Assembly: GCA_023262495.1 (NCBI GenBank)
Contig: JALRAS010000005.1
Location: forward strand, 3,672-54,715
Length of the DNA stretch: 51,044 bases
Direction of reading: 5' to 3'
DNA from: Bacteroidia bacterium
GTDB lineage: Bacteria > Bacteroidota > Bacteroidia > UBA4408
The translations under genes and the position numbers were made by a program. Position 1 is the first letter of the stretch. Each line of letters starts with the position of its first letter. Below are positions 8,485 to 12,771 of the stretch, piece after piece. The notes under the pieces were generated by a model. That model had not been told where the DNA came from. It saw nothing but the letters and a program-made list of their open reading frames with translations, and made no database searches.

Positions 8485-8895
8485 TTATTGTAACATCAGG
8501 AGTAATGTTGATGCTCTTAATTGACCAAAAATAATGGCCTTTTGATTAAATGCGATCCCACATGCGATTGCGTCCTCCTTACTAATATCAATGATCAATA
8601 ATGACATTTCGTTGGGCCAGCCTTTTGTTCCTTCTCCATAACCCAAAACAAATTTATATCCTCGAGTTTCTACGTAGTTGATGAGTTGCTTATGACGCAG
8701 TTCGTTTTGCTCTGCCGTTAACAATTCAGAGAGAGGATTATAGGCGGTTATAAAGGCGTATGTTGTGCAGTTGTTTTCAATTAACAAATGGTCAAGTTTC
8801 TCATTTTTTTTACCCACTTGTATCACTATATCTTCAACAATATACCTTGTCTTTGCATAAGCTGATTTGAGCTCTCGGTTTTTATGTGTATACAT
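8485..8895 (-). CDS. DUF3293-like hypothetical protein
   Basis: YAFITAYNPLSELLTAEQNELRHKQLINYVETRGYKFVLGYGEG resembles the DUF3293 core. Confidence 0.65.
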   Translation of the reverse strand: MYTHKNRELKSAYAKTRYIVEDIVIQVGKKNEKLDHLLIENNCTTYAFITAYNPLSELLTAEQNELRHKQLINYVETRGYKFVLGYGEGTKGWPNEMSLLIIDISKEDAIACGIAFNQKAIIFGQLRASTLLLMLQ

Positions 8896-8938: not shown

Positions 8939-10078
8939 TTATTTCAACAATTGTAATTGCCCAATAACAAGCGCATCAATAATTTCCCAGGGCACATTAG
9001 CTTTTCCAAAATGTCCGTAGGCAGCTGTGCCAATGTAAATAGGTGCTTTTAACCCTAAGGTGCGTATGATACCCTGAGGTGTTAAATCAAACAGTGATTG
9101 AATGGCTTCCTCTATTTTTGATTCATCAATAACTCCTGTTTCATGCGTATTTACATATAAACTTGTTGGTTCCGCTTTTCCTATGGCGTATGACAGCTGA
9201 ATAGTGCACCGAGTGGCAAGGCCTGCCTCAACAATATGTTTGGCAACATATCTTGCTGCATAGGCGGCTGAGCGGTCAACCTTACTCGGATCCTTTCCGC
9301 TAAAAGCACCACCTCCATGCGGGCACGAACCACCATAAGTGTCAACAATAATTTTACGACCTGTAAGGCCTGTATCGCCATGCGGACCTCCAATTGTGAA
9401 GCTACCAGAAGGATTAATCATAATCACCGGATTGCCTTTCAGATCATAAGAACTAATCACCGGATGAATAATTTGCTCGGTAACAAATTTGCTTAATGCA
9501 GCCTGTGAAATGTGTTTCACATGTTGTGTAGACAATACAATGTTTTCGATGGCAACAGGTATATTGTTTTCATACCTGATGGTTACCTGTGATTTGGCAT
9601 CAGGCAATAGTACAGAGTCTTCTTGCATTCTTACTTCCCTTTGTTTTTCCATCAGTTGATGCGCTATCATAATGGGCATAGGCATTAGCGCAGGCGTTTC
9701 TCTACAGGCATAGCCAAACATTATTCCTTGATCACCTGCGCCACCATCGATAACACTGCTGTTAATTTCCGGACTTTGTTCGTGTAGTAAATTGATGTAA
9801 GCGGCATCTGCTTCACTGAATCCAGTAGCACTATCAGTGTAACCAATTTCTTTAATCACTGCTCTTGCTATGGCAATGGCATCAACATGTACTTTTGAGG
9901 TTACTTCACCGGCAATCACCAATTGTCCTGTTGTAATGAGGCATTCGCAGGCTACTTTGGCTTCGGGGTCTTGTGCTAAATAGGCATCTAAAATGGCATC
10001 AGAAATTTGATCGGCTACTTTATCGGGATGTCCGTTTGATACCGATTCGCTTGTAAATTGAAATGTTTTTGTTTTCAT
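8939..10078 (-). CDS. metK: Methionine adenosyltransferase (S-adenosylmethionine synthetase)
   Basis: FTSESVSNGHPDKVADQISDAILDAYL; GAGDQGIMFGYA; GPHGDTGLTGRKIIVDTYGG; likely start is the internal Met (MKTKTFQFTSESV) at 10078 rather than 10108. Confidence 0.97.
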   Translation of the reverse strand: MKTKTFQFTSESVSNGHPDKVADQISDAILDAYLAQDPEAKVACECLITTGQLVIAGEVTSKVHVDAIAIARAVIKEIGYTDSATGFSEADAAYINLLHEQSPEINSSVIDGGAGDQGIMFGYACRETPALMPMPIMIAHQLMEKQREVRMQEDSVLLPDAKSQVTIRYENNIPVAIENIVLSTQHVKHISQAALSKFVTEQIIHPVISSYDLKGNPVIMINPSGSFTIGGPHGDTGLTGRKIIVDTYGGSCPHGGGAFSGKDPSKVDRSAAYAARYVAKHIVEAGLATRCTIQLSYAIGKAEPTSLYVNTHETGVIDESKIEEAIQSLFDLTPQGIIRTLGLKAPIYIGTAAYGHFGKANVPWEIIDALVIGQLQLLK

Positions 10079-10146
10079 GTGTATTGTTTTTAAGTTTTTA
10101 CAATACATCAGTAATGGGATGGCAACATGTTATTTTGACGAAATGT

Positions 10147-10219
10147 CCGCATCTAACTGCCACCGTGGAGTTGCTACTCTCGGTTGGCACCTTTGCCTAG
10201 GCAAAAGATTCCTGATGTA
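10147..10219 (-). promoter_or_regulatory. Candidate S-box-like structured leader RNA, copy A, upstream of metK
   Basis: Minus strand TACATCAGGAATCTTTTGCCTAGGCAAAGGTGCCAACCGAGAGTAGCAACTCCACGGTGGCAGTTAGATGCGG; P2 and P3 stems; shares CCAACCGAG...CCACGGTGG...TGCGG with copy B. Confidence 0.6.
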
Positions 10220-10280
10220 ATCAATAAATTAAATGGTTGATTAAGTAATATTTGTTTTAAATTTCATGTGAGTCATTTGG

Positions 10281-10679
10281 TTATACCCTGTAAATGTCGG
10301 CTTCATTTCTTTTGAATCCGGCTAGCACTGTGGACCTGTCATCAGGGCTTTTCATCACAACTTCAAAAAACTTACATGATTTAGGAAGCGCACCAAAAAT
10401 GAGTATAAATGTATGCGTTTTATCAATGGGTAGCAAAGTGCCATTAGGCCAAAAAGTAATGTTTTCGGCATGCAGTAACTTGCTTTTAGGAGAACCCTCA
10501 TCGGTAATTAAATAGGTATTGGGGGTAATGCAGATGTGAAAATCTTTGACATCTGTGATGAGTTCAATGATGACGGTTACCTGCGACTCTCTTAAGGGAA
10601 ATTTGTTGGGGTGTATTTCCATTTTGAGAATCGGCTTTTTTGCCGGTGTTGAATGAGAGGAATTAGATTGACTGTTCAT
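10281..10679 (-). CDS. Hypothetical protein
   Basis: 132-aa ORF, 6 nt downstream of 10686..11036 on the same strand; no family recognised. Confidence 0.6.
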   Translation of the reverse strand: MNSQSNSSHSTPAKKPILKMEIHPNKFPLRESQVTVIIELITDVKDFHICITPNTYLITDEGSPKSKLLHAENITFWPNGTLLPIDKTHTFILIFGALPKSCKFFEVVMKSPDDRSTVLAGFKRNEADIYRV

Positions 10680-10685
10680 AATTGA

Positions 10686-11036
10686 TTAATTATTTTCAGA
10701 GGTTTGTAAATCTTCTTCCTTCACACATGTCTCTGTTTTCTGTTTTTTGCTCGTTGCTATGTTACTTTTTCGTGCCCTGCTTTTTTCCGATTGAAGATCG
10801 AGCTTTATAAAGCGCCACCTGTAAAATGCAGGCTCCTGAAACTCATAATAACTGAGTCTTGGATTTACAATTTCTTCAAGCTGACATGATTCCGTTGGTA
10901 AAGCTCTAACAGTGTAAACCTTCATGGCCTCAGGAAATTTCATGAACTCGGCATACGCATTATTTTTAAGTACCTCCGAGAAGTCATCATTAATACATAA
11001 GATTTTATCACCTATTTTAAAATTAGGAATTTTCAT
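10686..11036 (-). CDS. Hypothetical protein (small basic-tailed)
   Basis: 116-aa ORF, MKIPNFKIGDKILCINDDFS; no family recognised; followed closely by another ORF. Confidence 0.6.
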   Translation of the reverse strand: MKIPNFKIGDKILCINDDFSEVLKNNAYAEFMKFPEAMKVYTVRALPTESCQLEEIVNPRLSYYEFQEPAFYRWRFIKLDLQSEKSRARKSNIATSKKQKTETCVKEEDLQTSENN

Positions 11037-11256
11037 TGTTATTAAATTTTAGTTAGTAATTATTTGATTTGAAAAAGATGCTCAATAGGTTATGAGCCCG
11101 TGGTGCAAATCAGCAATTTCAGCTGTAATTTGTAACCAAATAACAGGATAACGGATCAACCGTAATGAAAATTAAAATAGTGTTTCATACAACAATTTTT
11201 GTTGCATGCAGGAGTAAAATAAAGTAGGGTAAACTGAACTAATTTTGGCAGTGTGC

Positions 11257-11332
11257 CCGCATTATTTTTACCACCGTGGTGTTCAACTCGGTTGGCAGTA
11301 GCTCCTTTTTAGGGGAAGCAACTTCTGAATGC
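11257..11332 (-). promoter_or_regulatory. Candidate S-box-like structured leader RNA, copy B, upstream of the two hypothetical genes
   Basis: Minus strand GCATTCAGAAGTTGCTTCCCCTAAAAAGGAGCTACTGCCAACCGAGTTGAACACCACGGTGGTAAAAATAATGCGG; same architecture as copy A. Confidence 0.55.
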
Positions 11333-11378
11333 ATGGTTAATATTTAGAGAACTTTTTTCGAAATTTCTTTCGATGGCA

Positions 11379-11673: not shown

Positions 11674-12771
11674 ATGAAATACAAAAGAATGCCAATAGAG
11701 GCCGAATCGCCCGAAGAGCTTGGATATGGCAATATTGAATGCAACCTTGCCGAAAGCTCGGTTACTGATACCAATTTCAAAGATCTCGATTTTAATATTA
11801 AAGATATTACCTTGTGCTATGGCGATCACAAAGGTTTGCCTGCTTTGCGCGAATTAATAGCAGCCGATTACGGCCTTCAACCTGAGCATATTATTTTGGT
11901 GCCCGGTGCTGCTGCAGGATTATTCATTGTGGCCACATCACTGCTCAATAAAAATAGTCAGTTACTGGTTGAACGGCCCAACTACGCCACTAATATAGAA
12001 ACACCGCGTTTGTTGGAGTGTGAAATTAATTTTATCGATTTGCACTTTGAAACGCAATACAAGCTCGACTTGTACAGACTTAGCACGATGGTAAAAAGTA
12101 TGCCTTCATTAATCAGTATTACCACCCCACACAACCCCACAGGCAGTGTGCTTACGGAGGAAGAATTAATGGAGGTAGTCGAACTTTCGCGCAGGCATGG
12201 CAGTTATTTACTCGTTGATGAAACATACCGTGAGTTAAGTTTCAACAATCCGCCACCATTGGCAGCAAGTATCAGCGATAACGTTATTTCTGTTTCATCG
12301 GTGAGTAAGGCCTACGGTTTACCCGGTATAAGAATGGGTTGGATTGCATGTAAAAACAAGCATTTGTTGGAAACATTCTTAGCCGCCAAAGAACAGATTT
12401 TTATTTGTAACTCGTTGCTTGATGAGCATGTGGCCTTGCATTATCTGCAGCATAAGCAGCAATTTTTTGCCCCTATCAAGCAGCATATCAACAATAATTT
12501 TAAGGTACTTGAGGAGCACATGAATAGCAGTAAAAATTTAGAATGGGTAAAACCACAGGGAGGTGTAGTATGCTATCCCAGAATTATACCAAGTATTGAT
12601 TACAAAGTATTTTATAAGGAACTCTATCACAAACATAAAACTTTGGTTGGTGCGGGGCATTGGTTCGAAACATCACAAAAATACATGCGCATAGGTTTTG
12701 GTTGGCCCACAAAGGAAGCGCTGCAACAAGGGCTCCATCATATAGAAGCAACTATTGATGGTTTAAAATGA
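11674..12771 (+). CDS. PLP-dependent aminotransferase class I/II
   Basis: TTPHNPTGSVLTEEEL; LLVDETYREL; SVSSVSKAYGLPGIRMGWIA. Confidence 0.92.
   Translation: MKYKRMPIEAESPEELGYGNIECNLAESSVTDTNFKDLDFNIKDITLCYGDHKGLPALRELIAADYGLQPEHIILVPGAAAGLFIVATSLLNKNSQLLVERPNYATNIETPRLLECEINFIDLHFETQYKLDLYRLSTMVKSMPSLISITTPHNPTGSVLTEEELMEVVELSRRHGSYLLVDETYRELSFNNPPPLAASISDNVISVSSVSKAYGLPGIRMGWIACKNKHLLETFLAAKEQIFICNSLLDEHVALHYLQHKQQFFAPIKQHINNNFKVLEEHMNSSKNLEWVKPQGGVVCYPRIIPSIDYKVFYKELYHKHKTLVGAGHWFETSQKYMRIGFGWPTKEALQQGLHHIEATIDGLK

Follow-up and report, generated by a model that had tools for sequence, protein, structure and literature searches.

In the window, a 51,044-nt stretch of DNA from a Bacteroidia bacterium, the leader of a metK gene on the minus strand contains an RNA that is assigned by its sequence to the SAM-I/IV riboswitch family and is predicted to sense SAM (Table 1). 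Through this RNA, SAM quite probably represses translation of the gene downstream, which is predicted to specify a second, accessory SAM synthetase. The aptamer class is already known and its members described here are new; the part worth testing is the expression platform.

Table 1. Features of the metK region in the window
Feature	Position	Strand	Evidence or remarks
Second SAM-I/IV aptamer; two small unannotated genes and metK follow downstream	11231..11337	-	RF01725, 49.6 bits
Possible 10-codon leader ORF MKHYFNFHYG*, directly after the start hairpin of the second aptamer	11156..11188	-	sequence
116-aa protein, no known family	10686..11036	-	no Pfam, NCBIfam or PHROG match
132-aa protein, no known family	10281..10679	-	no Pfam, NCBIfam or PHROG match
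SAM-I/IV aptamer, accessory metK leader	10121..10223	-	RF01725, 47.2 bits; R1, 65.7 bits
5' strand of P1 and start of J1/2, UACAUCAG, proposed partner switcher	10212..10219	-	partners 10153-10150 or 10111-10104
P1, CATC/GATG	10217-10214 with 10153-10150	-	read from sequence
P2 hairpin, CTTTTGCC-TA-GGCAAAGG, 8 bp, continuous	10207-10200 with 10197-10190	-	sequence, RF01725
P3, GCCAACCG...CGGTGGC, core CCAACCG...CGGTGG	10188-10181 with 10165-10159 (span 10159..10188)	-	
P5 hairpin, GAC/GUC, 3' of P1	10147-10145 with 10139-10137	-	RF01725 structure line
Likely PK-2 3' strand, GUUGC	10122..10126	-	pairs with P3 loop GCAAC, 10174-10170
Anti-P1 strand, CUGAUGUA, complement of the 5' strand of P1	10104..10111	-	pairs with UACAUCAG, 10219-10212
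Start-codon hairpin, UGUAUUGU...ACAAUACA	10080..10107	-	p 0.020 against shuffles
Accessory S-adenosylmethionine synthetase MetK2, 379 aa	8939..10078	-	three S-AdoMet_synt Pfam domains
DUF3293 protein downstream of metK	8485..8895	-	PF11697, 2.6e-17

When a region of 1.9 kb was scanned, the SAM-I/IV model RF01725 matched the metK leader over its full length (model positions 1-99, E 4.3e-6), the Rfam gathering cut-off of this model being 41.1 bits. A gathering scan of the whole window had missed the aptamer because of its fast filters. The model R1 was built here from 34 relatives, the metK-leader aptamer itself included, and a search of the genome with it returned three copies, identical to the three obtained with RF01725. 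The third copy is located on another contig (C263:3627-3718). Up to an E value of 10, RF00162 (SAM-I) gave no match at the metK-leader site, and RF00634 (SAM-IV) and RF01724 (SAM-Chlorobi) gave none anywhere in the genome. Membership in SAM-I, SAM-IV or SAM-Chlorobi was therefore rejected. The folding energy of the single sequence was uninformative (z = -0.94).

The P2 helix of the metK-leader aptamer is devoid of the internal loop present in SAM-I and SAM-IV, which is the stated mark of SAM-I/IV (PMC2864571), whose P2 is undivided (PMC6890682). In the alignment of the 34 sequences, 96.1% of the cells in P1, P2, P3 and P5 are paired, a value falling to 29-36% if the partners are slid by one column. 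The covariation score is 0.430 compared to 0.189 +- 0.015 after shuffling, and none of 500 shuffles reached the native value. All four pairs at the base of P2 covary on both sides. While the core pairs of P3 are invariant, its closing pair, A-U, G-C or G-U, covaries. P5, expected in SAM-I/IV, is paired in 93.1% of the cells, with two of three pairs covarying on both sides. One P1 pair is mismatched (A-C) in the metK-leader aptamer. The pseudoknot PK-2, also expected in this family, is supported for the set of 41 loci (mean -4.88 kcal/mol for native and -3.66 kcal/mol for swapped partners, 0 of 2000 permutations); at the metK-leader locus alone, the pairing GCAAC/GUUGC is weakly significant (p = 0.07).

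These results change the picture given in an earlier note on this DNA. P1, P2 and P3 are all found on the minus strand as drawn there, and the proposal of a structure beyond chance is borne out by the end-to-end RF01725 match and by covariation, which is strong in P1, P2, P3 and P5. The note could not decide if an existing covariance model covers the motif; RF01725 does. Its leading reading, a reduced SAM-I (S-box) riboswitch, had to be given up, as had the options SAM-IV and SAM-Chlorobi, and it is the option of SAM-I/IV in front of metK that the full-length match supports. P4 and a kink-turn in P2 are indeed absent, but their absence is normal in SAM-I/IV and no sign of reduction. Since lack of the P2 internal loop marks this family, the compact layout is the ordinary one of a named class. 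Similarly, the exchange of G-C pairs in P3 was correctly seen, but it is the SAM-I/IV consensus. The interval 10219-10147 encloses the core helices, but the aptamer really spans 10223-10121, and an end at 10147 excludes most of P5, the likely PK-2 strand and the expression platform. The inner P3 stem GAGT-AGCA-ACTC is present as letters, but competes with PK-2.

Downstream of the aptamers, a compact expression platform consisting of an anti-P1 strand and a start-codon hairpin is predicted as a common feature, with the hairpin overlapping the anti-P1 strand in most loci. Across loci, the anti-P1 strand, which can pair with the 5' side of P1 and with J1/2, is located 8-37 nt past the aptamer. 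In the metK leader, the pairing of UACAUCAG with CUGAUGUA amounts to -10.9 kcal/mol (p 0.004 against shuffles). Complementarity was significant (p<0.05) against dinucleotide shuffles in 26 of 39 loci and, counting one locus per genome, in 20 of 25, with a mean of -10.6 kcal/mol for native and -6.1 kcal/mol for swapped partners, not reached in 10000 permutations. The 5' arm of the start-codon hairpin in the metK leader overlaps the anti-P1 strand, and a single base separates its 3' arm from the AUG at 10078. A genome of the same genus, G001, retains this hairpin as UGUAUUGA/UCAAUACA with an inner pair changed on both sides. At 33 loci, the distance from aptamer to AUG has a median of 56 nt (interquartile range 53-61), and the hairpin is below p 0.05 against shuffles at 19 of them; a clear start hairpin was not found at some loci (G188, G349, G159 C43, G299 and G021). 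Family membership, covariation, anti-P1 complementarity across loci and the start-proximal hairpin are shown by computation.

Folding predictions pointed to a connection between the two parts of the platform. In 28 of 33 loci, the anti-P1 stretch is paired with the 18 nt that end with the AUG, and blocking it in silico made the start region more open at 25 of the 33. The start was opened more by blocking anti-P1 than by blocking other positions (0.19 versus 0.11, Wilcoxon p 6e-4), combined p-values being optimistic because seven start codons were in part assigned by inspection and not all loci are unrelated. At the metK-leader locus itself, anti-P1 blocking exceeded only half of the control positions. 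With a folding model that includes neither ligand nor pseudoknot, the predicted ligand-free minimum of the metK leader is the anti-P1 state at -37.2 kcal/mol, 5.3 kcal/mol below the P1 state (-31.9 kcal/mol). In the literature searched, to which the central structural study of SAM-I/IV did not belong, no description of the anti-P1/start-hairpin platform, which may be new, was found.

SAM binding, the direction of control and the translational level of control are what we infer. In the proposed mechanism, the 5' strand of P1 (UACAUCAG) would, in the absence of SAM, pair with CUGAUGUA, the anti-P1 strand some 30 nt upstream of the start codon. This pairing would disrupt the hairpin UGUAUUGU/ACAAUACA and keep the start codon accessible. 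When SAM is present, P1 and PK-2 would form and free the anti-P1 strand; the hairpin could then fold directly before the AUG, hiding the start codon and blocking ribosome entry. The output would be a translational OFF switch operating without a Shine-Dalgarno site. Repression by SAM is favored by the product of the gene, a synthetase making the proposed ligand. Occlusion of the start codon would be a fitting output since Bacteroidetes have no Shine-Dalgarno sites and use the structure of the mRNA to tune initiation (PMC6847099).

Other modes of action have to be considered. Many SAM riboswitches act by transcription termination, and the hairpin downstream of the aptamer could be a terminator or a Rho-dependent signal. 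A terminator-like stem with a T run is in fact located downstream of the second aptamer, between the 10-codon ORF and the 116-aa gene (11097-11080, minus strand), but a single occurrence is compatible with chance (0.8 expected), and no such site was found in the metK leader. Moreover, no U tract accompanies the start hairpin, after which come the AUG and coding sequence rich in A. Termination is therefore judged unlikely. PK-2 alone could also be the switch, with a SAM-stabilized pseudoknot controlling the gene and anti-P1 being incidental. For an RNA studied by crystallography in the SAM-I/IV class, the pseudoknot is reportedly part of the regulatory switch, and PK-2 complementarity is supported for the set of loci. 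With its end 43 nt upstream of the AUG, however, the PK-2 strand is too distant to mask the start site, and anti-P1 complementarity is stronger and more widespread, which renders this explanation rather improbable.

A change of ligand, for example to SAH or another SAM derivative, appears least probable and would come as a surprise. Most hits in the class precede genes of unknown function and many downstream genes are not methionine genes, but the CCAACCG/CGGTGG core columns are almost invariant, metK copies included, and the metK-leader copy stands before a SAM synthetase. Repression of translation by SAM thus remains the preferred reading for the metK leader.

Two metK genes are present in the genome, and MetK2 matches the product of the other one, on contig C88, at about 54%. 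In a tree of 78 MetK proteins, MetK2 and the copies of G001, G043 and a Bacteroidia MAG (L099) constitute one group (support 100/99) apart from the housekeeping MetKs of the class. A SAM-I/IV aptamer is located upstream of all four metK genes of this group; in G043, a true tandem of aptamers about 60 nt apart precedes metK2 (L092 4111-4203 and 4265-4355, minus strand). In the leader of the housekeeping metK of the same genome, neither a riboswitch match nor an R1 match was detected, and no SAM-I/IV was found in the metK leaders of 19 relatives, a survey that revealed SAM-II in two relatives. A phage origin of riboswitch and metK is unsupported, the motif being present in none of the best 80 viral metK contigs.

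The complete order of aptamer, 116-aa ORF, 132-aa ORF, aptamer and metK is retained in G001. The 116-aa ORF is considered coding because its differences from G001 are distributed 31/18/54 over the codon positions, and an ORF equal in length to the 132-aa ORF is found at the equivalent place in that genome. Ten-codon ORFs occur at the place equivalent to the one after the second aptamer in G001 (MIHYYNFHYG*) and G043 (MKFFKKIDYG*), an arrangement pointing to a leader peptide that the riboswitch would control. A gene for a DUF3293 protein is also found near a SAM-I/IV-metK in G056. A match to a Bacteroidetes-type promoter at 11411-11379 is only suggestive, such matches being no commoner in the window than by chance. 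In G001, panB is about 0.4 kb from the first aptamer; in the window, an aminotransferase-like ORF of 365 aa intervenes (11674-12771, plus strand). The acyl-CoA dehydrogenase gene of G001 has its place on a different contig. The neighborhood of the metK cassette is thus rearranged.

At least one SAM-I/IV match above the cut-off was detected in 31 of 395 genomes of the class. Among the products of the genes downstream are MetK, AAA ATPases, an antiporter and many proteins that belong to no family. Aptamers at L016, L019, L024 and L027 precede MoxR-like AAA ATPases (PF07728 match for the L016 protein); at L024, the ATPase aptamer directly follows a metK-like ORF with an aptamer of its own. At locus L030 (G275:C2), three aptamers are crowded into about 1.2 kb, and the genes that follow them specify three different proteins of no known family. 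The genome of the window also contains a classical SAM-I riboswitch (G000:C73:162-277, 78.8 bits) and a cobalamin riboswitch (L097 10560-10770, 93.3 bits).

SAM-I/IV of these bacteria may share one conserved translational platform free of Shine-Dalgarno sites, with the 5' strand of P1 alternating between aptamer and start hairpin. The regulon that they serve may consist of accessory genes, mostly without names, and include a MetK lineage that has spread laterally; we regard this broader proposal as evenly balanced. It would provide a concrete model, open to mutation and with about 30 natural examples, of how a riboswitch could act on translation in a phylum that does without Shine-Dalgarno sites. 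It also marks the unannotated genes beside the extra SAM synthetase as probably SAM-regulated.

Comparison with the known SAM riboswitches places the RNA as follows. With SAM-Chlorobi (RF01724) it shares the location upstream of metK, but that model has no match in the genome. The core of the SAM pocket is shared with SAM-I (S-box, RF00162), from which the metK-leader aptamer differs by having neither the P2 kink-turn nor P4. P5 and PK-2 are located 3' of P1 as in SAM-IV (RF00634; PMC6890682), whereas P2 is continuous instead of being divided into P2a and P2b. P1, the loop-free P2, the P3 core, P5, the PK-2 strand and metK downstream all agree with SAM-I/IV (RF01725; PMC2864571), the differences being that P2 has 8 bp here and that, in this bacterial class, a predicted shared anti-P1/start-hairpin platform follows the aptamer.
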